Assembly: GCA_002049455.2 (NCBI GenBank)
Contig: KV918764.1
Coordinates: forward strand, 248,001 to 312,000
Reading direction: 5' to 3'
DNA: 64,000 nt
Origin: Porphyra umbilicalis
Lineage: Eukaryota > Rhodophyta > Bangiophyceae > Bangiales > Bangiaceae
Below the pieces are notes generated by a model. It searched no databases. It was not told the DNA's origin and worked only from the letters and a program-made list of their open reading frames with translations. Made by a program: the position numbers and the translations under genes. Position 1 is the first letter of the stretch. The number at the start of each line of letters is the position of its first letter. Positions 1-36,918 of the stretch are shown piece by piece.

Positions 1-85
1 AGCTGGCCACCCGCGAGACGCTCAGCGCGTTTTTGCTGCGAAAGCACCCGCCGGGCTGCGCCGTGTCTGCGTTTGCACCGACGGC

Positions 86-847
86 ATGGAACTGGTGGCA
101 GTCCCCGGGGGGGGGGGGGCGTGGGTGAGGTTGAGGGAAGAAACTTTTGGGGGGCTTCCCGCCGCCAAGGAGCAGCGGGTGGGGCGGAGCGCGGCGTGGC
201 GAGACACGGTGGCGCGGGGCGTGGCGTGGAGGTCGGAGCGGGGGCTTTGGTCACGCTTTAAGGGGTGTGGGCGACAGGCAGGCAGTGACGCATCGAAGCC
301 GCTGCACGAAGCGGCGCGCATCGGCAACAAGGACGTCGGCGAGGTGCTGCTGCGCGCCCACGCGGCGATGGACGCAAAGAGCGATAAATGAGGGACGCCG
401 CTGCACGTGGCGGCGCACCGTGGCAACAAGAAGGTCCCTGAGATGCTGCTGTGCGCGGGCGCGGCGGTCAATGAGCCGGACGGCAACAAGGCGACCCCAC
501 TCCGAGTGGCGACACGCCGCATAAATTCGGAGGTTGTGCGCCTCCTGCTGGAGTGGCACGCCGGCCCAAACAGAATGGGCCCTGACCGTGCTCAAGCAGG
601 CCTGTCCACCACGTCCAAGCAGCTCCGGGACGTGTTTGACGAGGCCGTCCAAATGCCAGAACAGAATCTCGAGTCGGCCAAAGCAACGTAGCGGGCCGCG
701 GCGGACGCGGCCAGCACTAACGCGGCCGCGGCGGATCTGATCGCCCAAGAGCTGGTCGCTCTTCAAGCGGCCTACGACGGTATTGTCGTCGCGCCTGAAA
801 TGCTGTCGGTGAGTGCCCTGGAGGCAGCGCTGACACGGCTCAACTGA
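86..847 (+). pseudogene. Ankyrin-repeat protein relic, copy A
   Basis: One frame runs from an ATG at 86 to a TGA at 845 and encodes about three ankyrin repeats. Diagnostic pieces are KPLHEAARIGNKDVGEVLL, TPLHVAAHRGNKKVPEMLL and TPLRVATRRINSEVVRLLL. An Ala-rich helical tail (ADLIAQELVALQAAYDGIV) follows. The frame is crossed by two in-frame stops, TGA at 389-391 and TAG at 689-691. Sequence before the G run at 109-119 also reads well in another frame (SAFLLRKHPPGCAVSA), so the original protein probably began further left. Ankyrin repeats mediate protein binding; no catalytic domain is seen. It is either a decayed gene or a gene whose stops lie in unrecognised introns. Confidence 0.7.
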
Positions 848-1113
848 AATCAAGTGACTTGCTCTCCGTTTCAGAGGTGGCAGTGTGCATTCATGTCCTC
901 AGGGATCTGAAGGCGTGTCAGTGTTGCAAGTGTCGCGGTGACGCTAAAAGCGAATGGAGTTATGTGGCTGAGAAGGACTGCACCCGCCACAGGCGAGGGC
1001 GTCATTTCCCCAGCGTGTGCCCGAAAATGGGGCCATCACAGGCAACCAAGAGTAGCCTTGGAGGTCGAGGCCGCCCGTGTCGACGTGGGTGGTGAGGGAG
1101 GGGAGCGGGGGGG

Positions 1114-1345
1114 GGGGGGGGTCGCCGTCGCCGCCGCCACCGCCGTTGCCGCCGCCGTCGAAGGCGTCGTCGTTGCCGCCACGACCGCCCTTGCCGCCGC
1201 CATCGGTGCTGTCGTCGCCGTCGCTGCCGCCACCGCCGTTGCCGCCGCCGTTGGGGGCGTTGCCGTTGCCGCCGCCACTGCCATTGCCGCCGCCATCGGA
1301 AATGTCGTCGCCGTCGCCGCCGCCACTGCAGTTGCCGCCGCCGTC
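1114..1345 (+). repeat. GCC/GTC-rich trinucleotide array, copy A
   Basis: This is an imperfect array of GCCGCCGTC / GCCACC type triplets. Read on the plus strand it gives runs of Val-Ala (AVAAATAVAAAV). It lies just after a G run and is shared with copy B at 29794-30025. Confidence 0.85.
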
Positions 1346-1410
1346 ATCGTTTGGAAAGACAAGTGGGGGGTAGAGGGCCCTCCAGCAGTGTTGGTGCTCT
1401 CGGCTTCGTG

Positions 1411-1686
1411 CTATTCATTATTTTCTGCCAGACTGGCAAAGGGGGCGTCCTGCTCCGTCAGACGGAGTCCGGGCAGCTCGCATTCACTCACCACCCTTGT
1501 CCTGCCCCTGTTCACATTGTCAGCCAGCCCACCATACCCCCGAGTGGCGGTAGCGACGTGAGCATCCGTTCTTCGATTGTGGCTGATGAACGTTGCCATG
1601 TCGCCATTGAGCTCTTTGTTGGCGACCATCTCCTTGATCGCGCCTACCTGCAGAGGGGTGATGGGGGTCCTTCGACCTCCCGCCAT
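1411..1686 (-). CDS. Unrecognised 91-residue protein, copy A
   Basis: The frame starts at an ATG at 1684-1686 and reads MAGGRRTPITPLQVGAIKEM onward. It has a balanced, protein-like composition and no obvious low complexity. The stretch TPLQVGAIKEMVANKEL could form helices, and a DNA-binding role is conceivable, but I do not recognise the family. Copy B keeps the frame open with only a couple of substitutions, which mildly supports coding. It may be one exon of a longer minus-strand gene, since another protein-like minus frame lies just upstream at 1856-2092. A competing plus-strand frame (1586-2320) overlaps it and is also open in both copies, so the strand is not settled. Confidence 0.35.
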   Translation of the reverse strand: MAGGRRTPITPLQVGAIKEMVANKELNGDMATFISHNRRTDAHVATATRGYGGLADNVNRGRTRVVSECELPGLRLTEQDAPFASLAENNE

Positions 1687-2320
1687 GATGGTTCTGGTGA
1701 GTTTCTATCCGCTGGTGACAAGCTGGGGGCGCTTCTTCGTAGGTCACTGGCTCAACGCTTCACGCTCAAGTCCCCAGAATGAGGCATATCAGGGCCAGAG
1801 AGGCCGATTATCCAATCTCATTGACGACCGCAATCGCCTTTCCAGGGTGGGCAAATTATATTGGGTACGTACTGTACGTGCCCCCGTGCGCGCTCGCGGC
1901 TATGGAGTCGGCCGGCGTGCCCGGTGTCGATGCGTCGCCAAGCGCGTCACCGCTCTGAAGGCCATTGTATTGCACGCATGTGCCTGGAATGGTGCTTTGG
2001 TCATCACCCTGAGCCCCGTACAGCGCCTGACAAAACGAAAAGTGGAGGTTGACCGACACGTGTTCAGCCGAGTCATCGGCTGTACTGGTCATAATTTATC
2101 CTCATCATCGGCTGTGCTGGTCATGATTCATCCTCGTCATCGGCTGTCGGCTGTACTGGTCACAATGGCCAAAATCGCAAACCAGACCTGGTCCATGGAA
2201 AAAGTGCGCTACGCCAATGCAGACACACAAGTTCCAGCAGACGAGAACAATAAGGAAGATCGTGGAATCGGTTGGATCAGGATGACGCCGCCTGCTTCAA
2301 TGTGGCGCGGATCAAAGTGA
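1586..2320 (+). CDS. Open frame of about 244 codons, copy A, doubtful
   Basis: An ATG at 1586 opens a frame that stays open to 2320 in copy A and over the matching 30266-31000 in copy B. The predicted protein begins MNVAMSPLSSLLATISLIAP, which could be a hydrophobic leader, but the rest resembles no family I know and its composition is not clearly protein-like. It overlaps the minus-strand frame at 1411-1686, and at most one of the two is likely to be real. It is listed because its length is conserved in both copies. Confidence 0.2.
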   Translation: MNVAMSPLSSLLATISLIAPTCRGVMGVLRPPAMMVLVSFYPLVTSWGRFFVGHWLNASRSSPQNEAYQGQRGRLSNLIDDRNRLSRVGKLYWVRTVRAPVRARGYGVGRRARCRCVAKRVTALKAIVLHACAWNGALVITLSPVQRLTKRKVEVDRHVFSRVIGCTGHNLSSSSAVLVMIHPRHRLSAVLVTMAKIANQTWSMEKVRYANADTQVPADENNKEDRGIGWIRMTPPASMWRGSK

Positions 2321-2347
2321 TGTTCACCTACGGACGAAGTCAGAATA

Positions 2348-2506
2348 TTGCAGTCTGCTGAATTTTGCCTGTCTGAGCCGGAACAGAACGCAATCAGGAC
2401 GGAATCCTATTGGCCATCAGGTCGTATCCGGCTGAGTGGATGGCTGAGAGTCTGTCCTGATTGCGTTCTGTCCCGGCCCGGACCGGCAAAATTGAGCAGA
2501 CTGCAA
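2348..2506. mobile_element. 159-bp mariner/Stowaway-type MITE, copy A only
   Basis: The ends are inverted repeats starting TTGCAGTCTGCTGAATTTTG on the left and closing CAGACTGCAA on the right. TA dinucleotides flank both ends (2346-2347 and 2507-2508). Copy B has the empty site with a single TA (AGAATAGCATG near 31025), which proves insertion with TA duplication. Inner sequences also pair (ACAGAACGCAATCAGGACGG against CCTGATTGCGTTCTGT), so the whole element can fold into a hairpin. It has no coding capacity. TA duplication and small size fit a non-autonomous Tc1/mariner element. Confidence 0.9.
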
Positions 2507-2550
2507 TAGCATGTCATAAAGATGAAATCGTAAGTGCATCGTGCACCCAG

Positions 2551-2646
2551 TGATGACGGCGAGATTCGAACTCGCGCCCCACAGGACTAGTGCCTTAAAC
2601 TAGCGCCTTCATGATTTTTGCAGATAGAGCACTCGGCCACGTCACC
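2551..2646 (-). tRNA. tRNA-Leu(AAG) with 16-nt D-loop intron, copy A (damaged)
   Basis: Read on the minus strand, the acceptor GGTGACG pairs with CGTCATC and A73 follows. The D-stem is GCC/GGC. The anticodon arm is CTAGT/ACTAG with loop TTAAGGC, giving anticodon AAG. The T-arm is GCGAG-TTCGAAT-CTCGC. The D-loop is 16 nt too long; removing TCTGCAAAAATCATGA (2609-2624) restores a normal Leu D-loop. In this copy one base of the invariant GG pair is changed (GAGTGC instead of GAGTGG), and the downstream T run present in copy B is broken. Copy A is therefore probably poorly functional or dead. Confidence 0.8.
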
Positions 2647-2976
2647 CTTGCGTTGTAAATGAGGGACTGAAAACTGTTTAAATTTCTCTATCATAGCAGG
2701 GACGGCAGATGCAACGTTGAACGACAGCTGATGAAGTGTCCTGGGCACCAAGCAGCATGCGCATCCAGCCCACATGGAACCATCCTCGCTCGACAGGCCA
2801 CAGCCATGCCCTTTAATGCATGTGAGGGTGCTGTAAGTGGCATTTATGTCGCATGACCCCTAGAAGAGGGACGCTCGTTTGACCCCGAGAGTGACGCGGA
2901 CAAACGCCAACCCTGGCCATATGTCTGCGGCACATCTTTGTTAATCCATACGGATTTCCGTGTTGACAAGGCATTT

Positions 2977-3072
2977 GTAGTCGTTGCTGATCTGGTTCGC
3001 GTAAATACCCTTCGCAGTCACAGCGCGCGCCTCACACGCGTGAGATCGTGGGTTCAAATCCCGCCGACTGCG
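2977..3072 (+). tRNA. tRNA-Val(CAC) with about 22-nt D-loop intron, copy A (intact)
   Basis: The acceptor GTAGTCG (2977-2983) pairs with CGACTGC (3065-3071). The D-stem GCTG/CAGC encloses ATCTGGTT plus extra sequence. Taking 2998-3019 as an intron leaves a normal D-loop. The anticodon arm is CGCGC/GCGTG with loop CTCACAC, giving anticodon CAC. The T-arm is GTGGG-TTCAAAT-CCCGC, a good B box. G73 is followed by genomic CCA and then TTTTT, a pol III terminator. The D-stem differs from copy B by a compensating pair change (G13-C22 here, A-U there), strong support for the fold. Only the exact intron ends are uncertain, by a base or two. Confidence 0.87.
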
Positions 3073-3442
3073 CCACTTTTTGCACAGAAGCCATGCCAAC
3101 GTTCAAATTCATGATTGCTTCGCATTCGAAGAAGGTGGTTTCGTGCCGATTTTCTTTTCGTTCTGTTTTATTGGCTCGAGCAGTTGATACCCCCCAGCCA
3201 TGGTGGCATTCGTGCGTTGGGCCTTGCCCCTTTGGTTTACCTTGCGCGACCGGCGGCGCGGGCGGGGGCTAGCATCGATTTCCGCAGAAGAGGGGGGAAG
3301 TTGTAGGACATGCCCGAGGCGCGCACAAACCTCACGCCGACCAAGACGGACGCGGAGGCGACGGCGGTTGACAGCGGCGCAGGGGAATGGTCTCAGTATT
3401 GTGAACTCACTTCCCACCAATTATGGAAATGAAGCAGCCGTG

Positions 3443-3628
3443 ATTGGAACGCAGCACTCTCATTGGTTCACACGCTTGCGTGCACGCTGAGAGCCCGTCG
3501 TCAAGACGGCCAGCGTCCCATGTGTTGGGAAGATAACTGGTGGTACAAGCCAATGGGAGTGTCCCCTTATCACTATCATCTCCAGCCAATAGAAACGGTG
3601 CGGCTCGGGTGAGTCGGTGTTTAATTGG
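3443..3628. promoter_or_regulatory. Cluster of five CCAAT boxes, copy A
   Basis: CCAAT or its complement ATTGG occurs at 3443-3447, 3462-3466, 3550-3554, 3586-3590 and 3624-3628. Five in 186 bases in a mixed-composition region suggests NF-Y type promoter sequence, but no convincing gene start is seen next to it. The cluster is conserved at 31962-32147 in copy B. Confidence 0.4.
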
Positions 3629-3839
3629 ACCGCATGACATCGCACCAGAGGCGCACGTGGAAAACACGTACGAGAGACGTAGCCCCCATTGTACATGAAT
3701 TCAATCACTATTGACTTCCAAATTGAACCACAACCACCCATAATATGATTCGTTGGGCAGATCACACACGAAGGAAACTGGCGTCCGTGCGAATGGCCCC
3801 GCTGGACGAACGTGCAGCGCAAACGAACGTCTCAGTGTA

Positions 3840-4238
3840 TTGCCGATCCCCGAATTTTGTCCTGATGGACAGAGACTGACTTGCGGACCGACTCTGTTCA
3901 CCAATCAGATGCGCCCCTGGGACTCACTTGGTGCTCTTGATTGCTAACATGTGTCCATTTTGCCTGGATTTTGACATCAGCTCTTCTTTTTTTCTGCACT
4001 TCTGGCGCGGAGACGGTAGAAAATCTCAAGATCTCGCGCGGGCAGCCTGCTCCGTGCCAAGAAAATCTGATCAAGCGGCCACAAATAGTGAGTTCTGCTG
4101 CATGAAAAATCCTGGCACCGAATGGGGGCATTCTATTGGCTTTGTTGCCTTCTTTCTGTCGTTTTAAGCCAATAGAGTGGTGTTATTCACAGTCAGTCTC
4201 TGTCTCAGTCCCCCAGGACAAAATTTGGGGATCAGCAA
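3840..4238. mobile_element. 399-bp TA-flanked MITE (TTGC-GATCCCC family), copy A
   Basis: The inverted ends are TTGCCGATCCCCGAATTTTG on the left and a right end closing GGGGATCAGCAA. TA flanks lie at 3838-3839 and 4239-4240. The same element is in copy B at 32359-32756, so it predates the duplication; relatives lie at 24434-24831 and 6073-6513. It has no protein capacity. The interior carries CCAAT boxes on both strands (CCAATCAGATG, CTATTGGCTT, GCCAATAGAG). TA duplication suggests mobilisation by a Tc1/mariner transposase. Confidence 0.88.
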
Positions 4239-4753
4239 TACGTCTATCGGTGCGCCAAATCGCCAGATCACTGTTCTTGACACTGGTACCAGTTCTCAGC
4301 AACTCCATCTCGTGTGGGAAGTCCACAGTGTTTACATATGAAATCGGGTTCCTGGTGATGCGCCGGAACCGCCTCTGGCGCAGTTCACGCGTTTTTTATA
4401 AAACAACTAAAGAGTTCGGAGCAGTTTGAGTCAAATAAACAAAAACTCATGAGCTCATCAGCTGTCCAACGACGCCTTGTGCACTTCGAACAGAGCACTC
4501 CTGGGCCACAAAAGCCCGTTTTTTACACCTGGAGAGAAAGCAGCGAAAAGTACATGGCTGGATCGCTGCAATTCGGCGTTCATGTAGTCCTTGAGGAGGG
4601 ATATTGAGCGGATCGTCTTGCTTCCCGGTCACCACTGGGGCCGCGGACAAGAGGTCACACGGACGCATTCCAGAGCCCCGTAGTGGCCGTGTGGGTCGGT
4701 TTCGCGGGCAAGGTCGACAAAGAGGTGTGATCAGCACATCTACGGATGCTTCA

Positions 4754-4789
4754 GGCTATAAAGCATCTCAGCTGAGATGCTCCATAGCC
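4754..4789. other. 36-bp near-perfect palindrome, copy A
   Basis: The two 18-base halves pair at 16 of 18 positions around a CAGCTG centre with no loop. Halves begin GGCTATAAAGCATCTCAG. It is conserved at 33273-33308 in copy B. It could be a hairpin or cruciform; no function is assigned. Confidence 0.5.
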
Positions 4790-6072
4790 CGAGGTTGGTG
4801 GTCGCGTTGTTCTGTGCGGGTTTTTCAGGGCTATCCATCGCCCCCCGAACCCCCCGGCCTTCGAGCCATCACAGCGCAACTCTGTACGAGTTCCGTAGGT
4901 ACCAGCACAGCCTTGAACATCATATTTTCATGCAGGTGATAGACACTGCACCCCCCTGCAGCCATCCTCTGCCCTCTCATCCGCCCTTCTTTCTTCCCCA
5001 CGCGATCAACCTCGGTGCCATCGGCTGTTCTCGGCCTGCAGTCTTCCCCCCCCCCCTCCCTCCTGCTGTGTCCTGGCCCTCTGGTCACATGCTGGTTTTC
5101 AGCAACCCTCTGTGTCTCCTGACGCTACGAGAAGTACTCCAACGACTCATGCGCCCCTCCTCTGCGAAGCGTCCTGTGCTGCACAGGCTCCTTGCGCGGT
5201 CCACAAGCACCTTCGTGTGGTAGAAGGCGACACCAGGATGGAAGTCGGGGCTCCCAGATGGCCAAACAATCCGTTCTCAAATAAAACTAATTGCTGTAAT
5301 GTGCGATTCCGACCCGTTCTTGTCTGAGAAATCATTGTGTCAGGCGCAGCACGGCTCGGTGACAGCAGCGGTTGCAGCGGGCCCACTGTCTGTCCGACCG
5401 TGCTTGTCGAAGACGTGAAGCATGCCCTGCTGGATGAGAATTGCCGCACACACCCTGCCGCCGAGTTTATAAAACTAGTGACTACATGCTGAAAAAGAAT
5501 TTCGCCTTCTGTCGAATCAAGTCTGCCCCTGTCCTCCCCAATAACATGGATGCACCTTTCCGCACCGGAACTATTGGTCACCATTCTCGAACTCATCGAG
5601 AATATTTCATATATACTAAAATCTCCGCGGGATGAGTTTTGAAAAAGAGCAGTGCAGGAATAAATGGGGGCTACTCATATTTTGACGTTTGTTCCGACCA
5701 CGTGTGGTCCCTTTGTGGGCCTTCGAGGCTTTATCCAAAGATTCTCTGGGTCTTATTCAAACATGTTTCCGCGTCCCCAACACATGGGCAGGGGGCCGTC
5801 AAGACTGGGCCTGAGTGGCGCCAGTTGTGTGACGTGTGAGAAAGGAGAGAAGGCTGGAGCCCGAGCGTGGAAAAACACTACCAGATCCCGCAGGTGCAAA
5901 TCGGCTTCTGTGCCTGACTCATCCCGCATGTTGAACCGCACCGGACCCTATTGCCCCTCTAAGGCGGTGTCTGAACACGATATCTCTACCCTTTGCAGAG
6001 CCTTGCATCACGCTGGCCACGTTCGAACCCTGCGCACAGGCATCAGATCAGTTCAGTTTAGGCGACTTCATA

Positions 6073-6513
6073 TTGCTGATCCCCCAATTCTGTCCTCGTC
6101 GACCAGGAACGGTTCCTGGCGGTACGGTTCTTGTGGAACTGGCCATCTATTGGTTAAACGCAGCCGTAAACAGCTGCTCAGCACGAATCTGAGGCGTCCT
6201 ATTGGCTCTCCCTCCGCCACTTCCGTGCAGAACCGAGATCCTTCTTTTTCTTGAGATTTTCTTCCGATCCCTTCCGTGTCAAGGGAGCAACCGGCCCGCA
6301 ATCGTTGGGATATCGAGATTTTCTGGGAGATACGCAGAAAAGTGCAGAAAAACGAAGGCGTCGATTGTGCGATTGGGGGCCGTACGGGCACATTCTGTAA
6401 AGATCGGGCCGGACATGCACTGCTGTCGGACTGCTCGACCAATGAGAGATCTGCATTCATGGCCATTCCACTACCGTTCCGGGGCGATGAGGACAGAATT
6501 GGGGGATCAGCAA
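6073..6513. mobile_element. 441-bp TA-flanked MITE, same family, copy A only
   Basis: Its left end TTGCTGATCCCCCAATTCTG and its right end closing GGGGGATCAGCAA match the other members, but the interior is different and longer. Copy B has the empty site with a single TA (CATCATATTTCTGAG near 34591), so this inserted after the duplication. Flanking TA lies at 6071-6072 and 6514-6515. The interior again has CCAAT boxes (ATCTATTGGTTAA, ACCAATGAGAG, CCTATTGGCTC). Confidence 0.9.
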
Positions 6514-6591
6514 TATTTCTGAGCAGAAGCGGCTGTTTATTATAATTTTGAGGCCGAGGTGTCTGACGCCGTCTCATACCCCAACTGACCG

Positions 6592-7722
6592 TGATCATGG
6601 CCTAGTACGACTACGGGACACGGCGGAGGGGGGGGGCTGTTCTTCTACACCATACCGATGCAGAAAGGATAACAACGAAGAGAGGGGGGGGGGGGGGGGG
6701 GGACGCAGGCGAGAGAACAAGAAGAATGCATCGGCGAAAGGAGAAGGACATCGGCCCACAAAGAGAGAGGAAAGAATTCCAACAGGACACAAGCCGGCCG
6801 TTAGGGAGGGTGGGGGGGGGGGGTGGGGGGTGAAGATGAGGGGGGAGCACAGCGGGGCAGGCGGGTGAACGAGGCGGGGGGACCGCTGTGGGCAGCGAGA
6901 AACAGGTGGAGACAGCCCAGAAGACCAGCAGAAGGCAGGCCGGCAGGAGAGGGGGGAGGGGACGGTGGGGAGTGAGGGAAGGAGACTTGGAGACGGCAGG
7001 GCGGGGGGGGGAGTGCACCGTACGAAGAAGGGGGTGGGGAGTGCAAAGTACGAGGGGAGGGCGGGGGGTGCACAGTACGAGGGGGGGGAGTGGAGTGCAC
7101 CGTACGGCAGGTCAGCGAAGGGGGAAGAGAGGGCCGTCTGGGGAACATGCTGGGTGTCGTTTTAAGTCAGGCCGTCACTCGCAGGGCGGGCAATCTTGAA
7201 TCCACGCGCGAATCGGGTCCAGCTGGCCAATGGTGGGAAAGAACGTCACTTCTGTCGCATCCGATCTACGCAGCTATTGGCTCCTACCGTCTCGAAGCAG
7301 CTTGATCGGATCCCGACGAGAAGCGCGCCCAAACCGGTCATTCGCCGATGCCTCGGGCAGATGCCGACCACCCTCTCCATGACACATGCTTCGGTGCAGA
7401 CTCCCAGATCCCATGCTACTCGTTCCCCCCCGCGCCCCTTCCGCCTTCTTCGGCCACCTGCCCTCCAGTGCACTCTCCTCCCGACCCCCCCCCCCCCCCC
7501 CCCGACGGCCGGCCTGCGTCCATCCGTGCTTCCTGTCTGTGCTTGTCGGCCGATGTCCTCCCTACGCTGATGCTATTTGCATCTTCTCTCTCGTCTGCGT
7601 ACCTCCCTTCCCACCCCTCCCCCCCCCCTTTTGTTATCCTTTCTGCATCCGTATGCTCTAGAAGTACAGCCCCGGCCCCCCCGCCGTGTCCCGCAGTCGT
7701 ACTGTACCAGGCCATGATCAGG
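6592..7722. mobile_element. Long-inverted-repeat element, copy A
   Basis: Left arm about 6592-6810 and right arm about 7495-7722 are inverted copies of each other. Both outer ends carry TGATCATGGCC; both arms share GGGACACGGCGG, ATGCAGAAAGGATAACAA, GACATCGGCC and GCCGGCCGT. The arms are G/C-run rich. The centre holds a GTGCACAGTACGAG minisatellite and no recognisable protein. The long arms suggest a foldback-type element, but target duplications were not found. The same structure is in copy B, split by the 892-bp insertion. Confidence 0.65.
7009..7108. repeat. GTGCAC-GTACGAG minisatellite, copy A
   Basis: About four units of GTGCACMGTACGAG are separated by G-rich spacers, with a period near 27 bases. 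The copy B counterpart at 35091-35186 differs in spacer length. Confidence 0.7.
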
Positions 7723-8080
7723 GGCACTTGGGAACGAGGAGGAGGGAAGGCGTCTCGGACTCGAAGCATAGAATTTCGCTTCTCCAAAACCATAAATGAA
7801 GCCTGTCATTGTGAAACCTTTCCCATACGGGAGGAACGAATCCATAGCCATGCATGGTGTCGGGGCTCTCACGCGTGGTCATGGTGACGGGGCTCTCACG
7901 CGTGGTTATTCTGTCGGTCGCGCGATAGCTCCCCACGACTGTGCTGGCCCACAATCTCTAAGATTTGCTGAAGGCTGCCACAGGGGCCATCAGGGGTGGG
8001 CGCTTGCAACATGCGGGATGCGTTTGATTGGTGAAATGTCCGATTTGCACCCTAGAGACGGCGAGTGTTCTACCATGTAC

Positions 8081-28681: not shown

Positions 28682-28766
28682 AGCTGGCCACCCGCGAGAC
28701 GCTCAGCGCGTTTTTGCTGCGAAAGCACCCGCCGGGCTGCGCCGTGTCTGCGTGTGCACCGACGGC

Positions 28767-29528
28767 ATGGAACTGGTGGCAGTCCCCGGGGGGGGGGGGC
28801 CTTGGGTGAGGTTGAGGGAAGCAACTTTTGGGGGACTTCCCGCCGCCAAGGAGCAGCGGGTGGGGCGGAGCGGGGCGTGGCGAGACAAGGTGGCGCGGGG
28901 CGTGGCGTGGCGGTCGGAGCGGGGGCTTTGGTCACGCTACAAGGGGTGTGGGCGAAAGGCAGGCAGTGACGCATCGAAGCCGCTGCACGACGCGGCGCGC
29001 ATCTGCAACAAGGACTTCGGCGAGGTGTTGCTGCGCGCCCACGCGGCGATGGACGCAAAGAGCGATAAATGAGGGACGCCGCTGCACGTGGCGGCGCACC
29101 GTGGCAACAAGAAGGTCCCTGAGATGCTGCTGTGCGCGGGCGCGGCGGTCAACGAGCCGGACGGCAACAAGGCGACCCCACTCCGAGTGGCGACACGCCG
29201 CATAAATTCGGAGGTTGTGCGCCTCCTGCTGGAGTGGCACGCCGGCCCAAACAGAATGGGCCCTGACCGTGCTAAAGAAGGCCTGTCCACCACGTCCAAG
29301 CAGCTCCGGGACGTGTTTGACGAGGCCGTCCAAATGCCAGAACAGAATCTCGAGTCGGCCAAAGCAACGTAGCGGGCCGCGGCGGACGCGGCCAGCACTA
29401 ACGCGGCCGCGGCGGATCTGATCGCCCAAGAGCTGGTCGCTCTTCAAGCGGCCTACGACGGTATTGTCGTCGCGCCTGAAACGCTGTCGGTGAGTGCCCT
29501 GGAGGCAGCGCTGACACCGCCCAACTGA
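28767..29528 (+). pseudogene. Ankyrin-repeat protein relic, copy B
   Basis: This is the duplicate of the relic at 86-847. It has the same three ankyrin repeats and the same two in-frame stops, here TGA at 29070-29072 and TAG at 29370-29372. Because both stops are shared, they predate the duplication. More upstream sequence is visible here: the frame before the G run reads EIASGFLRTDKHYQLATRE from about 28640, which looks like coding sequence feeding into this gene. Its function is unknown beyond likely protein binding. Confidence 0.7.
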
Positions 29529-29793
29529 AATCAAGTGACTTGCTCTCCGTTTCAGAGGTGGCAGTCTGCATTCATGTCCTCAGGGATCTGAAGGCGTGTC
29601 AGTGTGGCAAGTGTCGCGATGACGCTAAAAGCGAATGGAGTTATGTGGCTGAGAACACTGCACCCGCCACAGGCGAGGGCGTCATTTCCCCAGCGTGTGC
29701 CCGAAAATGGGGCCATCACAGGCAACCAAGAGTAGCCTTGGAGGGCGAGGCCGCCCGTGTCGACGTGGGTGGTGAGGGAGGGGAGCGGGGGGG

Positions 29794-30025
29794 GGGGGGG
29801 GTCGCCGTCGCCGCCGCCACCGCCGTTGCCGCCGCCGTCAAAGGCGTCGTCGTTGCCGCCACGACCGCCCTTGCCGCCGCCATCGGTGCTGTCGTCGCCG
29901 TCGCTGCCGCCACCGCCGTTGCCGCCGCCGTTGGGGGCGTTGCCGTTGCCGCCGCCACTGCCATTGCCGCCGCCATCGGAAATGTCGTCGCCGTCGCCGC
30001 CGCCACTGCCGTTGCCGCCGCTGTC
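29794..30025 (+). repeat. GCC/GTC-rich trinucleotide array, copy B
   Basis: This duplicate of the array at 1114-1345 has almost the same unit order, so the array has not expanded or shrunk noticeably since the duplication. Confidence 0.85.
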
Positions 30026-30090
30026 ATCGTTTGGAAAGACAAGTGGGGGGTACAGGGCCCTCCAGCAGTGTTGGTGCTCCCGGCATCGTG

Positions 30091-30366
30091 CTATTCATTA
30101 TTTTCTGCCAGACTGGCGAAGGGGGCGTCCTGCTCCGTCAGACGGAGCCCGGCCAGCTCGCATTCACTCACCACCCTTGTCCTGCCCCTGTTCACATTGT
30201 CAGCCAGCCCACCATACCCCCGAGTGGCGGTAGCGACGTGAGCATCCGTTCTTCGATTGTGGCTGATGAACGTTGCCACGTCGCCATTGAGCTCTTTGTT
30301 GGCGACCATCTCCTTGATCGCGCCTACCTGCAGAGGGGTGATGGGGGTCCTTCGACCTCCCGCCAT
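30091..30366 (-). CDS. Unrecognised 91-residue protein, copy B
   Basis: This is the duplicate of the frame at 1411-1686. It is the same length and differs in one early Met-to-Val and one Pro-to-Ala change. It is open from ATG to stop. The family is not recognised. The protein-like upstream frame is also kept here, at 30536-30772. Confidence 0.35.
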   Translation of the reverse strand: MAGGRRTPITPLQVGAIKEMVANKELNGDVATFISHNRRTDAHVATATRGYGGLADNVNRGRTRVVSECELAGLRLTEQDAPFASLAENNE

Positions 30367-31069
30367 GATGGTTCTGGTGAGTTTCTATCCGCTGGTGACA
30401 AGCTGGGGGCTTTTCTTCGTAGGTCACTGGCTCAACGCTTCACGCTCGTGTCCCCAGAATGTGGCAGATCAGGGCCAGAGAGGCCGATTATCCAATCTCA
30501 TTGACGACCGCAATCGCCTTTCTAGGGTGGGCAAATTATATTGGGTACGTACTGTACGTGCCCCCGTGCGCGCTCGCGGCTATGGAGTCGGCCGGCGTGC
30601 CTGGTGTCGATGCGTCGCCAAGCGCGTCACCTCCCTGAAGGCCATTGTATTGCACGCATGTGCCTGGAATGGTGCTTTGGTCATCACCCTGAGCCCCGTA
30701 CAGCGCCTGACAAAACGAAAAGTGGAGGTTGACCGACACGTGTTCAGCCGAGTCATCGGCTGTACTGGTCATAATTTATCCTCATCATCGGCTGTGCTGG
30801 TCATGATTCATCCTCGTCGTCGGCTGTCGGCTGTACTGGTCACAATGGCCAAAATCGCAAACCAGACCTGGTCCATGGAAAAAGTGCGCTACGCCAATGC
30901 AGACACACAAGTTCCAGCAGACGAGAACAATAAGGAAGATCGTGGAATCGGTTGGATCAGGATGACGCCGCCTGCTTCAATGTGGCGCGGATCAAAGTGA
31001 TGTTCACCTACGGACGAAGTCAGAATAGCATGTCAAAAAGATGAAATCGTAAGTGCATCGTGCACCCAG

Positions 31070-31165
31070 TGATGACGGCGAGATTCGAACTCGCGCCCCA
31101 CAGGACTAGTGCCTTAAACTAGCGCCTTCATGATTTTTGCAGATAGACCACTCGGCCACGTCACC
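31070..31165 (-). tRNA. tRNA-Leu(AAG) with 16-nt D-loop intron, copy B (intact)
   Basis: It has the same cloverleaf as the copy at 2551-2646, but the D-loop reads GAGTGGTCTA before the extra sequence, so the invariant GG is present. The 16 extra bases lie at 31128-31143. Without them the D-arm becomes GCCGAGTGGTCTAAGGC, a standard eukaryotic Leu sequence. All four stems pair; the only weak acceptor pair is G2-U71. A TTTTT terminator lies about 35 nt past the 3' end (minus strand, 31034-31038). The intron position in the D-loop, not next to the anticodon, is unusual and is known from Cyanidioschyzon merolae. Confidence 0.88.
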
Positions 31166-31495
31166 CTCTCGTTGCAAATAAGGGACTGAAAACTGTTTAA
31201 ATTTCTGTATTATAGCAGGGACGGCAGATGCAACGTTGAACGACAGCTGATGAAGTGTCCTGGGCACCAAGCAGCATGCGCATCCAGCCCACATGGAACC
31301 ATCCTCGCTCGACAGGCCACAGCCATGCCCTTTAATGCGTGTGAGGGTGCTGTAAGTGGCATTTATGTCGCATTACCACTAGAAGAGAGACGCTCGTTTG
31401 ACCCCGAGAGTGACGCGGACAAACGCCAATCGTGGCCATATGTCTGCGGCACACCCTTGTTAATCCATACGGATTTCCATGGTGACAAGGCATTT

Positions 31496-31591
31496 GCAGT
31501 CGTTGCTAATCTGGTTCGCGTCAATACCTTTCGCAGTCATAGCGCGCGCCTCACACGCGCGAGATCGTGGTTTCAAATCCCGCCGACTGCG
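31496..31591 (+). tRNA. tRNA-Val(CAC) with about 22-nt D-loop intron, copy B (T-arm damaged)
   Basis: This is the duplicate of 2977-3072. The acceptor GCAGTCG/CGACTGC pairs perfectly, the D-stem is GCTA/TAGC, and the anticodon stem CGCGC/GCGCG is perfect with loop CTCACAC. The extra D-loop sequence is 31517-31538. The T-arm reads GTGGT-TTCAAAT-CCCGC, so the conserved G53-C61 pair is lost and the B box is weakened. This copy is probably impaired, the reverse of the Leu gene, where copy B is the sound one. Confidence 0.8.
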
Positions 31592-31961
31592 CCACTTTTT
31601 GCACAGAAGCCATGCCAACGTTCAAATTCATGATTGCTTCGCAGTCGAAGAAGGTGGTTTCGTGCCGATTTTCTTTTCGTTCTGTTTTATTGGCTCGAGC
31701 AGTTGATACCCCCCAGCCATGGTGGCATTCGTGCGTTGGGCCTTGCCCCTTCGGTTTACCTTGCACGACCGGCGGCGCGGGCGGGGGCTAGCATCGATTC
31801 CCGCAGAAGAGGGGGGAAGTTGTAGGACATGCCCGAGGCGCGCACAAACCTCACGCCGACCAAGACGGACGCGGAGGCGACGGCGGTTGACTGCGGCGCA
31901 GGGGAATGGTCTCAGTATTGTGAACTCACTTCCCACCAATTATGGAAATGAAGCAGCCGTG

Positions 31962-32147
31962 ATTGGAACGCAGCACTCTCATTGGTTCACACGCTTGCGT
32001 GCACGCTGAGAGCCCGTCGTCAAGACGGCCAGCGTCCCATGTGTTGCGAAGATAACTGGTGGTACAAGCCAATGGGAGTGTCCCCTTATCACTCTCATCT
32101 CCAGCCAATAGAAACGGTGCGGCTCGGGTGAGTCGGTGTTTAATTGG
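31962..32147. promoter_or_regulatory. Cluster of five CCAAT boxes, copy B
   Basis: This duplicate of the cluster at 3443-3628 keeps all five boxes. No adjacent gene is recognised. Confidence 0.4.
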
Positions 32148-32358
32148 ACCGCATGACATCGCACCAGAGGCGCACGTGGAAAACACGTGCGAGAGACGTA
32201 GCCCCCATTGTACATGAATTCAATCACTATTAACATCCAAATTGAACCACAACCACCCATAATATGATTCGTTGGGCAGATCACACACGAAGGAAACTGG
32301 CGTCCGTGCGAATGGCCCCGCTGGACAAACGAGCAGCGCAAACGAACGTCTCAGTGTA

Positions 32359-32756
32359 TTGCCGATCCCCGAATTTTGTCCTGATGGACAGAGACTGACT
32401 TGCGGACCGACTCTGTTCACCAATCAGATGCGCCCCTGGGACTCACTTGGTGCTCTTGATTGCTAACATGTGTCCATTTAGCCTGGATTTCGACATCAGC
32501 TCTTCTTTTTTTCTGCACTTCTGGCACGGAGACGGTAGAAAATCTCAAGATCTCGCGTGGGCAGCCTGCTCCGTGCCAAGAAAATCTAACCAGCGGCCGC
32601 AAATAGTGAGTTCTGCTGCATGAAAAATCCTGGCACCGAATGGGGGCATTCTATTGGCTTTGTTGCCTTCTTTCTGTCGTTTTAAGCCAATAGAGTGGTG
32701 TTATTCACAGTCAGTCTCTGTCTCAGTCCCCCAGGACAAAATTTGGGGATCAGCAA
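32359..32756. mobile_element. 398-bp TA-flanked MITE (TTGC-GATCCCC family), copy B
   Basis: This is the duplicated partner of 3840-4238, with the same flanks and the same internal CCAAT boxes. TA lies at 32357-32358 and 32757-32758. Confidence 0.88.
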
Positions 32757-33272
32757 TACGTCTATCGGTGCGCCAAATCGCCGGATCACTGTGCTTGGCA
32801 CTGGTACCAGTTCTCAGCAACTCCATCTCGTGTGGGAAGTCCACACTGTTTACATATGAAATCGGGTTCATGGTGATGCGCCGGAACCGCCTATGGCGCA
32901 GTTCACGCGTTTTTTATAAAACAACTAAAGAGTTCGGAGCAGTTTGAGTCAAATAAACAAAAACTCATGAGCTCATCAGCTGTCCAACGATGCCTTGTGC
33001 ACCTCAAACAGAGCACTTCTGGGCCCCAAAAGCCCGTTTCTTACACATGGAGAGAAAGCAGCGAAAAGTACATGGCTGGATCGCTGCAATTCGGCGTTCG
33101 TGTAGTCCTTGGGGAGGGATATTGAGCGGATCGTCTTGCTTCCCGGTCACCACTGGGGCCGCGGACAAGAGGTCACACGGACGCATTCCAGAGCCCCGTA
33201 GTGGCCGTGTGGGTCGGTTTCGCGGGCAAGGTCGACAAAGAGGTGTGATCAGCACATCTACGGATGCTTCAG

Positions 33273-33308
33273 GCTATAAAGCATCTCAGCTGAGATGCTC
33301 CATAGCCC
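33273..33308. other. 36-bp near-perfect palindrome, copy B
   Basis: This is the duplicate of the palindrome at 4754-4789, kept unchanged in copy B. Confidence 0.5.
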
Positions 33309-35090
33309 GAGGTTCGTGGTCGCGTTGTTCTGTGCGGGTTTTTCAGGGCTATCCATCGCCCCCCGAACTCCCCGGCCTTCGAGCCATCACAGCGCAACTC
33401 TGTACGAGTTCCGTAGGTACCAGCACAGCCTTAAACATCATATTTCCATCCAGGTGATAGACCCTGCACCCCCCTGCAGCCATCCTCTCCCCTCTCATCC
33501 GCCCTTATTTCTTCCCCACGCGATCAACCTCCGTGCCATCGGCTGTTCTCGGCCTGCAGTCTTCCCCCCCCCCCTCCCTCCTGCTGTGTCCTGGCCCTCT
33601 GGTCACATGCTGGTTTTCAGCAACCCTCTGTGTCTCCTGACGCTACCAGAAGTACTCCAACGACTCATGCGCCCCTCCTCTGCGAAGCGTCCTGTGCTGC
33701 ACAGGCTCCTTGCGCGGTCCACAAGCACCTTCGTGTGGTAGAAGGCGACACCAGGATGGAAGTCGGGGCTCCCAGATGGCCAAACAATCCGTTCTCAAAT
33801 AAACCTAATTGCTGTAATGTGCGATTCCGACCCGTTCTTGTCTAAGAAATCATTGTGTCAGGCGCAGCACGGCTCGGTGACAGCAGCGGTTGCAGCGGGC
33901 CCACTGTCTGTCCGACCATGCTTGTCGAAGACGTGAAGCATGCCCTGCTGGATGAGAATTGCCGCACACACCCTGCCGCGGAGTTTATCAAACTAGTGAC
34001 TACATAATGCTGAAAAAGAATTTCGCCTTCTGTCGAATCAAGTCTGCCCCTGTCCTCCCCAATATCATGGATGCACCTTTCCGCACCGGAACTATTGGTC
34101 ACCATTCTCGAACTCATCGAGAATATTTCACATATACTGAAATCTCAGCGGGATAAGTTTTGATAAAAAGCAGTGCAGGAATAAATGGGGGCTACTCATA
34201 TTTTGACTTTTGTTCCGACCACGTGTGGTCCCTTTGTGGGCCTTCGAGGCTTTATTCAAAGATTCTCTGGGTCTTATTCAAACATGTTTCCGCGTCCTCA
34301 ACTCATGGGGAGCGGGCCGTCATGACTGGGCCTGAGTGGCGCCAGTTGTGTGACGTGTGAGAAAAGAGAGAGAAGGCTGGAACCCGAGCGTGGAAAAACA
34401 CTACCAGATCCCGCAGGTGCAAATCGGCTTCTGTACCTGACTCATCTCGCATGTTGGACCGCACCGGACCCTATTGCCCCTCTGAGGCGGTGTTTGAACA
34501 CGATATCTCTACCCTTTGCAGAGCCTTGCATCACGCTGGCCACGTTCGAACCCTGCGCACAGGCATCAGATCAGTTCAGTTTAGGCAACATCATATTTCT
34601 GAGCAGAAGTGGCTGTTTATTATAATTTTGAGGCCGAGGTGTCTGACGCCGTCTCATACCCCAACTGACCGTGATCATGGCCTAGTACGACTACGGGACA
34701 CGGCGGAGGGGGGGGGCTGTTCTTCTACACCATACCGATGCAGAAAGGATAACAACGAAGAGAGGGGGGGGGGGGGGGGGGACGCAGGCGAGAGAACAAG
34801 AAGAATGCATCGGCGAAAGGAGAAGGACATCGGCCCACAAAGAGAGAGGAAAGAATTCCAACAGGACACAAGCCGGCCGTCAGGAAGGATGGGGGGGGGG
34901 GGTGGGGGGTGAAGCTGAGGGGGGAGCACAGCGGGGCAGGCGGGTGAACGAGGCGGGGGGACCGCTGTGGGCAGCGAGAAACAGGTGGAGACAGCCCAGA
35001 AGACCAGCAGAAGGCAGGCCGGCAGGAGTCGGGGGAGGGGAAGGTGGGGAGGGAGGGAAGGCGACGTGGAGGCGGCAGGGCGGGGGGGGG

Positions 35091-35186
35091 GAGTGCACAG
35101 TACGAGAAAGGGGGTGGGGAGTGCATAGTACGAGGGGGGGGGGGGAGTGCACAGTACGAGGGGGGGGGAGGGGAGTGCACCGTGCG
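35091..35186. repeat. GTGCAC-GTACGAG minisatellite, copy B
   Basis: This counterpart of 7009-7108 has the same unit, with longer G runs between units. Confidence 0.7.
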
Positions 35187-35434
35187 GCAGGTCAGCGAAG
35201 GGGGCAGAGAGGGCCGTGTGGGGAAACATGCTGGGTGTCGTTTCAAGTCAGGCCGTCACTCGCAGGGCGGGCAATCTTGAATCCATGCGGATCGGGTCCA
35301 GCTGGCCAATGGTGGGAAAGCACGTCACTTCTGTTGCATCCGATCTACGCAGCTATTGGCTCCTACTTCTCGAAGCAGCTTGATCGGATCCCGACGAGAA
35401 GCGCGCCCAAACCGGTCTTTCGCCGATGCCTCAG

Positions 35435-36326
35435 GCCCATTCTTAGCTGCGGCTTCGTTCGTGTGACGCTTCGTGTGACGAGCTCTCAGCTTAGAAAGGT
35501 CGCAGTGGGTCGTCCCTTCGTGTGACAGTGTGAGGCGGAAATATTTCGATGAATTTAACGTAAGTGATTGTCGGTCAAAGGGCTGACTTCGAGCGCTCGG
35601 TTGCTGGGCTCGGCACTGGCGCACACCGATGCTGTAAAACACAGTGGTTCAACATATGCCATGAAGGCGACGCCTTCGTCGCCCTCCCCTCGTTGCCGAC
35701 GCCTCGTTGCCGAGCCAGACAGCTTGAAATTGAACCCTTGGCGCCACTTTCGCGGAACCAGGATAGCCTCCCTGGATGGTCCATGCAGCAGTCTGTGCAC
35801 GGCCGGGGAAGAAGTCCATTTGGGGGCGCAGCTTTGGCCCACCATGATACCCGCAGCGTACGCTCGTATCGCGCTGCGGGCGTACTGAGGAATCCTCGAA
35901 TTTGTGCTGTCGTACAGAAACGGCGACGGAGAGGCGGCCATCTGCCACAGGGCAGCGTAGGGGGCCAGCTGGTCATTTGGACAAGGCTGGGGGGCGTGGG
36001 GCGTCGCCGACGAAGGGGGAAGACGTGGCCCGACTCGACTGTGGCGTCGCTTTCGGCTGCAGCCAGCAGGAGCCGACGGACTCGAATGTCCATCACACCA
36101 GTCGATTTGGAATTGATTGTTTCCAAGTTCGCACTTGAAACCGTTCCGCAAGACCAGCACGCCGCAAGGTCGATGTGATGACATGAAGCAACGTCGGAAA
36201 GTTCTTTTCCGACGTTGCTTCGTGTGATCACATGTGATCACATTGTTACGCGTTGCAGCCAATAGCTGGCCGCCCCACATCGTCACATGAACCGTCACAC
36301 GAACGAAGCCGCAGCTAAGAATGGGC
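35435..36326. mobile_element. 892-bp DNA element with 34-bp inverted ends and CTCAG target duplication
   Basis: The ends are perfect 34-base inverted repeats starting GCCCATTCTTAGCTGCGGCT (35435-35468 and 36293-36326). CTCAG flanks both sides (35430-35434 and 36327-36331). Copy A has the empty site (GATGCCTCGGGCAGATGCC near 7347), so it moved after the duplication. The interior holds a strong hairpin near 36184-36221 (GAAGCAACGTCGGAAA against its complement). Frames of up to 247 codons are open on the minus strand, but no transposase motif is seen. A 5-bp duplication does not fit the Tc1, PIF or hAT families, so the superfamily is left open. Confidence 0.9.
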
Positions 36327-36460
36327 CTCAGTCAGATGCCGCCCACCCTCTCCATGACACATGCTGCGGTGCAGACTCCCAGATCCCTTGCTACTCGTTC
36401 CCCCCCGCGCCCCCCCCGCCCTCTTCGGCCACCTGCCCTCCAGTGCACTCCCCTCCCGCC

Positions 36461-36522
36461 CCCCCCCCCCCCCCCCCCCACCCCCGCCCCCCCCCGCCCC
36501 CCCCCCCCCCCCCCCCCCCCCC
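36461..36522. repeat. Near-pure C tract of about 60 bases
   Basis: This is a run of C broken only by a few A or G. It is shorter at the matching place in copy A (7487-7502), so its length is unstable or badly assembled. Confidence 0.8.
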
Positions 36523-36918
36523 GACGGCCGGCCTGCGTCCATCCGGGCTTCTTGTCTGTGCTTGTCGGCCGATGTCCTCCCTGCGCCGATGCTATTTTCT
36601 TCTTCTCTCTCGTCTGCGTCCCTCCCTTTCCCCCCCTCCCCCCCCCCCCTTTTGTTATCCTTTCTGCATCCGTATGCTCTAGAAGTACAGCCCCGCCCCC
36701 CCGCCGTGTCCCGCAGTCGTACTGTACCAGGCCATGATCAGGGGCACTCGGGAACGAGGAGGAGGGATGGCGCGTCGGACTCGAAGCATTGAATTTCGCT
36801 TCTCCAAATCCATAAATGAAGCCTGTCATTGTGAACCCTTTCCCATACGGGAGGAACGAATCCATAGCCTTGCATGATGTCGGGGCTCTCACGTGTGGTC
36901 ATGGTGTAGGGGCCCTCA

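Follow-up and report, generated by a model that had tools for sequence, protein, structure and literature searches.

Can a nuclear tRNA gene be interrupted inside its D-loop and still give rise to an ordinary tRNA? The question is raised by four loci in the window, a stretch of 64,000 nucleotides from Porphyra umbilicalis that corresponds to positions 248001-312000 of contig C4 in an assembly of 83.8 Mb and 665 contigs (cited below by their C-numbers). A sequence-only reading of the window had described two tRNA-Leu(AAG) and two tRNA-Val(CAC) genes whose cloverleaf is complete only if 16 and about 22 nt, respectively, are taken out of the D-loop. Our cloverleaf parser returned exactly these coordinates and stems (Table 1): the Leu genes have a D-loop of 27 nt on a D-stem of 3 bp and the Val genes one of 31 nt on a D-stem of 4 bp, with full acceptor, anticodon and T stems at all four loci save for one T-stem pair in the second Val copy. 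The two genes of each Leu-Val pair lie on opposite strands with 330 bp between them. The length and flanks of the putative intron in the first Leu copy were modelled on the D-loop of intron-free Leu(CAG), GAGCGGTCTAA, and on relatives from C34, C64 and C93; the predicted spliced D-loop of the first Val copy has 9 nt, as in the intron-free Val(AAC) genes and the Val(CAC) exons of C47 and C349.

Table 1. Positions within the window of the interrupted tRNA genes, their putative introns and the duplicated units
Feature	Position	Strand	Basis
tRNA-Leu(AAG) copy 1, 96 bp including the putative D-loop intron	2551..2646	-	parser; Rfam 45.8 bits; ARAGORN after removal
Putative D-loop intron of Leu copy 1, 16 nt	2609..2624 (2610-2625 gives the same product)	-	modelled
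tRNA-Val(CAC) copy 1, 96 bp including the putative D-loop intron	2977..3072	+	parser; ARAGORN after removal; T-run
Putative D-loop intron of Val copy 1, 22 nt	2998..3019	+	comparison of spliced D-loop
tRNA-Leu(AAG) copy 2, G18G19 intact	31070..31165	-	parser; pattern match; ARAGORN after removal
Putative D-loop intron of Leu copy 2, 16 nt	31128..31143 (31129-31144 equivalent)	-	parser; removal
tRNA-Val(CAC) copy 2, T53 breaks the 53-61 pair	31496..31591	+	parser (T-stem 4/5 pairs); ARAGORN after removal
Putative D-loop intron of Val copy 2, 22 nt	31517..31538	+	parser; removal
Segmental duplication unit 1 with Leu-Val pair, aligned in pieces	1..7898	.	self-BLAST, 94-98% to pieces of 28682-36918
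Segmental duplication unit 2	28682..36918	.	self-BLAST

The first 7.9 kb of the window recur in pieces at 28.7-36.9 kb, which gives two copies of the Leu-Val pair. Given this tandem segmental duplication, the two window copies are not independent of each other, and independence is supplied by the other contigs. Two further features were noted in this region: a MITE-like insertion of 157 bp with terminal inverted repeats at 2348-2504, ~46 bp downstream of the Leu gene, which is missing from the duplicate and from a third C4 copy and has a 4-bp overlap at the empty site; and, by eye only, coding fragments resembling ankyrin repeats at 280-700.

With the insertions in place, ARAGORN called no tRNA in the whole window (0/4 loci); after deletion of the 16 nt (Leu) or 22 nt (Val), which leaves tRNAs of 80 and 74 nt, it named Leu(aag) and Val(cac) at 4/4. 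As a control, removal of a block of equal length elsewhere in the four genes gave some tRNA call in 7, 4, 3 and 2 of 127 placements each. Rfam reported the Leu gene at 2551 and lost that at 31070, and it shortened both Val genes to 59-nt matches (32.1 and 33.2 bits) whose start falls within the insertion. Across 25 genes with D-loop insertions, ARAGORN returned the expected anticodon after removal in 23, the misses being Leu C83, which is truncated at its 5' end, and Asp C36:124, which is without a matching 5' acceptor strand. Before removal, some call was made in 6/25, with the right anticodon in one (Glu C448:9896). Removals elsewhere in these genes gave some tRNA call in 470/2859 cases, a figure in which the identity of the call was not compared and to which several genes already miscalled before any removal contribute. 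In a second set of nine genes (seven with D-loop introns and two with T-loop introns alone), all nine were correctly named after removal; beforehand one was right (Cys C409), two were misnamed and six were uncalled.

Taken at face value, the Rfam matches would make the Val loci genes for a short, D-armless tRNA starting at 3014 and 31533. Such a tRNA has scarcely any chance of being the true product: the matches start in the insertion because its GCAGTC copies the 5' strand of the acceptor, and pair 13-22 of the D-stem covaries. This is the compensating pair that had been noticed between the two window copies (GCTG/CAGC versus GCTA/TAGC), and it is real: it is G-C in copy 1, A-T in copy 2 and, in a third state, C-G in a diverged copy on C34, in a stem that spans the insertion. 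We reject the short tRNA in view of the Val(CAC) genes on C47, C236 and C349, which are without the acceptor-like piece and keep the full cloverleaf.

While the structure of the four loci had been described correctly, damaging substitutions in one Leu and one Val copy had been overlooked. In the Leu gene at 2551, position 19 is a C and the 60 nt that follow the gene contain no run of four T; such a run lies at +31 of the second Leu copy and at +5 of both Val copies. The C19 and the absent T-run in this Leu gene, and the T53 of the Val gene at 31496, are expected to impair the respective genes: the latter is perhaps decaying, whereas the Leu gene at 31070 looks sound. Compared with other Val(CAC) exons, those of the C4 Val genes carry differences at 11-14 of 74 sites, positions 9, 15 and 73 among them, and the stems are still paired in the first Val copy and in a third C4 Val copy; these genes may still function as variants or may be decaying slowly. 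Between C4 and C34, the Val exon (85% identical) is conserved no better than its flanks (88.8%). These substitutions at invariant sites, the poorly conserved Val exon and the segmental duplication of the Leu-Val unit are what one might see if the loci were pseudogenes or tRNA-derived repeats, silent next to normal genes. The Leu exon, however, is 97.5% identical in the same C4-C34 comparison, and the compensating changes preserve the Val D-stem. The census of the assembly bears further on this reading.

A search of the assembly with A-box and B-box patterns, together with the Rfam tRNA model, recovered the D-loop insertion in at least 44 copies with at least 14 anticodons, the site being modelled directly before A21 in nearly all; the sequence-only reading was right about the two affected tRNAs it named and understated the scope. 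Both numbers are lower bounds because the patterns need intact boxes, and also from their scope, with 100 of 142 places listed in one pattern search and 63 of 1261 candidates scored by Rfam. Many of the 44 are not independent, being segmental or tandem copies. Among the matches outside the plastid contig, every copy is interrupted of Leu(AAG) (6/6, one of them truncated, on C83), Val(CAC) (7/7), Asn(GTT) (1/1), Arg(TCG) (1/1), Arg(CCG) (1/1), Trp(CCA) (3/3), Phe(GAA) (3/3), Gln(CTG) (1/1) and Asp(GTC) (13/13). Other sets are mixed, the interrupted copies among the matches being one of four for Lys(CTT), three of four for Cys(GCA), one of three for Pro(CGG), two of five for Glu(CTC) and one of two for Leu(TAG); the uninterrupted Leu(TAG) gene, on C115, is AT-rich and adjoins an organelle-like Ser gene. 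For Val(CAC), Leu(AAG), Phe, Trp, Asn and Asp, all non-plastid pattern matches carry the insertion; the same patterns do return insertion-free Lys, Pro, Glu and Val(AAC) genes. Two side observations are added here. Most of the 100 places listed of 142 matches in one pattern search belong to an interspersed tRNA-like repeat (TAGCCTAGTGGGAAGTAGGCACCC...GGGGGTTCGAACCC), which occurs on C2, C8, C10, C12, C13, C29, C127 and many other contigs, often paired ~4.8 kb apart, and which may be a repeat with a Pol III promoter or the termini of a retroelement. Phycobilisome proteins are encoded on the plastid contig, C665; the rod-core linker among them shares 96% identity with the Pyropia yezoensis cluster, other relatives reaching at most 79% among the best 120 of 4084, and a bangialean red alga is therefore the most likely host.

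Introns at the classical 37/38 position also exist in this genome, in Thr(AGT), Thr(TGT), Ser(CGA), Glu(TTC) and Glu(CTC) and, on visual inspection of the matched letters, in Gly(GCC) and Gly(TCC). Genes for Cys, Val(TAC) and Gln(CTG) have putative T-loop introns; these measure 14-23 nt in those tested (Cys C26 copies 1 and 2, Cys C409, Val-TAC C409 and Gln C64:49890-50040), and in Gln and on C26, which holds three Cys genes, they are found together with a D-loop intron. Some T-loop insertions begin with CC and so keep a B-box-like sequence intact, in a search that itself demanded a B box. The D-loop insertions are 10-25 nt long. Self-splicing group I and group II introns have a catalytic RNA core of well over 100 nt and are ruled out at this size. 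Permuted genes were likewise set aside, as every parsed gene runs 5' to 3' in a parser and patterns that are blind to permuted genes. In Arg(CCG) the best fit puts the junction inside the D-stem (22/23); in Trp(CCA), with two copies on C147 and one on C320, the modelled junction leaves A12-C23 and A13-C22 mismatches in the D-stem of both gene types. Two C-to-U edits would mend the Trp(CCA) D-stem.

Paralogues with and without the insertion allow a direct comparison. Without its 15 nt, Lys C163 is identical to Lys C425 (73/73 nt) and matches two C216 genes at 72/73; Glu C448:15938, without its D-loop intron of 10 nt and its 37/38 intron of 14 nt, is identical to Glu C86 (72/72), the other interrupted copy, Glu C448:9896, matching at 69/72; and Pro C196 minus 13 nt equals the intron-free Pro genes over the 54/54 nt compared. 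The junction can be placed in a single way in Pro and Cys, at T20|A21, and in two ways in Lys. The insertions themselves appear to turn over. The Val(CAC) genes of C47 and C349 have identical exons of 74 nt with introns whose alignment is equalled by 18% of shuffles; the C236 insertion has some similarity to those of C349 and C34; and insertion lengths of 15, 16, 17 and 22 nt are seen in Val copies whose exons are identical or almost so. In the two Phe genes on C120, intron length differs only within the loop of a CGGT/ACCG hairpin. Junk insertions are disfavoured by the insertion-free paralogues, by the occurrence of unrelated insertions within identical exons and by the lack of insertion-free Leu(AAG) and Val(CAC) copies among the matches.

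Extra length is best tolerated in a loop, and the insertions might be retained in tRNAs that work with long D-loops of about 18-33 nt. We consider this most unlikely, given the insertion-free paralogues with identical exons and the variation in length and sequence among copies whose exons are the same or nearly so; moreover, most copies have a standard A21, G18G19 and D-stem, and Glu C448:15938 additionally has a classical 37/38 intron. As for silent pseudogenes or repeats, the Asp set adds a point in their favour: among seven Asp copies read, five have no matching 5' acceptor strand (C36:124, C24:261285, C271:11985, C394:20284 and C628:13574), and the acceptor is intact in C438 and C36:23933. 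In the five, the 5' acceptor is replaced by a related stretch that ends in GATAAAC, with an inverted repeat (TTTAT...ATAAA) seen by eye in 4/5. Nevertheless, none of the non-plastid matches for Val(CAC), Leu(AAG), Phe, Trp, Asn and Asp is free of an insertion, and we hold a silent state of the loci to be highly improbable. Phe, Asp, Asn and Trp tRNAs are indispensable to cells; with no uninterrupted nuclear gene for them among the matches, the interrupted genes would be needed. A tRNA-derived SINE was rejected as well: each tRNA has between 1 and 7 copies, most of them with full stems, the unclear case being Asp with its 13 copies and 5/7 read without the 5' acceptor strand. Thus, the extra bases are very probably D-loop introns of nuclear tRNA genes, presumably cut out by the tRNA splicing endonuclease, as had been proposed for this bangiophyte from the window; the insertion-free paralogues and the unrelated insertions in identical exons, both read from the DNA, support that proposal.

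How might such a junction be recognized? Provided that the D-stem forms, the intron bases lying 3 before its 3' strand (four bases) often pair with the D-loop around positions 16-19. A helix with a 3-base bulge was found in 11/17 first introns versus 5.6 in shuffles (p ~0.005, score >=7), a bulge size that was picked after looking as the best of nine, narrowly by counts (11 vs 10 for 4 bases). Introns found later, which had already been judged by eye, had the helix in 4/4 (p 0.009). In a set of 14 introns including Asp and Glu, the summed helix score exceeded that of shuffles (p 0.0008), as it did in the eight less related ones (p 0.0004); 13/14 pass a threshold of 6, chosen after many Asp introns had been seen to pair over 3 bp, and 8/14 pass the threshold of 7 used for the first set. 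Summed scores for bulges of 2 versus 3 bases are 99 vs 95 (14 introns) and 61 vs 63 (8 introns). These tests excluded Arg(CCG), and one relative stood in for the first Val copy of the window and for repeated copies. The helix is absent or weak in 6/17 first introns (Leu C93, with a 5-base bulge, Asn, Arg(TCG), Cys C26a and both Phe genes of C120), and a helix with a 3-base bulge is absent in Asp C457. The strict two-bulge BHB motif could not be demonstrated, nor could the second bulge and inner helix across the introns in general; with the D-stem forced, the D-arm folding energy was no better than that of shuffled introns (z -1.8 to 1.7); and several precursors did not adopt a cloverleaf when folded without constraints. 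Classical 37/38 introns have a helix beside a 3-base bulge at the 3' junction. The D-loop introns resemble them in this respect and differ in their site and in the pairing partner, which is the D-loop around 16-19 rather than the anticodon loop.

Two stop-free PF01974 (tRNA_int_endo) domains are encoded in the assembly, at C104:58676-58921 (66.6 bits; KFGADFLAY...FHAG...QKR) and C7:139005-139304 (37 bits; KYGVDWVLY...HAHASF...KNVAKTLLY). By eye, both keep what we take to be the expected context of the Y, H and K residues, and they presumably correspond to Sen34 and Sen2, respectively, which they resemble. These two predicted catalytic domains, the position of the insertion, the exon identity to intron-free paralogues in three tRNAs and the pairing tendency, all read from the sequence, are consistent with the following route. 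RNA polymerase III would transcribe the entire interrupted gene. In the precursor the D-stem would form, and bases near the 3' end of the intron would pair with the D-loop around positions 16-19, so that the 3' junction would come to lie in a bulge of ~3 bases (two intron bases and A21) adjoining the D-stem, a geometry resembling that used by the tRNA splicing endonuclease at 37/38. A two-headed endonuclease of the Sen2/Sen34 type would then cleave both junctions, and a tRNA ligase would join the halves. The site lies just 3' of the A box (positions 8-19) and leaves it intact, which may plausibly be the reason why introns are found there.

Introns of this kind have precedents. Soma, in 2007 and 2013, is said to have described ectopic and multiple tRNA introns in Cyanidioschyzon merolae, and Kawach, in 2005, reportedly found non-canonical ones in the Guillardia theta nucleomorph. 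In C. merolae, more than 62% of nuclear tRNA genes have introns, Ile(UAU) having three (PMC9602550); junctions 20/21 and 59/60 occur in permuted genes, 20/21 in a permuted Leu gene and 59/60 in others, and Arg(CCT) has a 14/15 intron (PMC3978253). The likeness to the present case lies in nuclear red-algal tRNA genes with introns in the D-, anticodon and T-arms and several per gene; as there, removal restores a standard tRNA, the site is other than 37/38 and endonuclease domains are present. In contrast to C. merolae, this alga belongs to the Bangiales, has an 84-Mb assembly and one dominant D-loop site, and intron-bearing and intron-free paralogues coexist in it. Nucleomorphs, Guillardia theta above all, likewise have a nucleus derived from a red alga, with tRNA insertions of 3-24 nt that include the D- and T-arms and, in G. 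theta, 9 non-canonical genes with excision confirmed by RT-PCR (PMC4090602). Unlike the genome studied here, theirs is a reduced relic, and many of its introns are without a defined BHB (PMC3978253). PMC4090602 also cautions that a D- or T-arm insertion is usually read as the mark of a pseudogene when it affects one gene among many synonymous ones; here, in contrast, whole isoacceptor sets are interrupted. Among the matches listed from the open-access literature, no title or abstract on D-loop introns in Bangiales was found. The kind of intron is hence already known from C. merolae and nucleomorphs, and the lineage and breadth appear to be new.

We consider it somewhat probable that the D-loop site before A21 is a second standard nuclear tRNA splice site in Bangiales, used for at least 14 anticodons, with introns being gained, lost or replaced fast enough for unrelated introns to sit in identical tRNAs and with selection keeping little beyond a short complement of the D-loop near the 3' end of the intron. 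In genomes of this sort, standard tRNA finders can overlook or misname tRNAs. How tRNA introns arise and disappear can be tested directly on the paralogues in which the exons are identical and the intron is present, absent or unrelated. Finally, these genes extend D-loop tRNA introns from the hot-spring Cyanidiophyceae and the nucleomorphs to a seaweed lineage with a large genome, suggesting that relaxed tRNA splicing may be an ancient trait of red algae rather than a by-product of genome reduction or heat.
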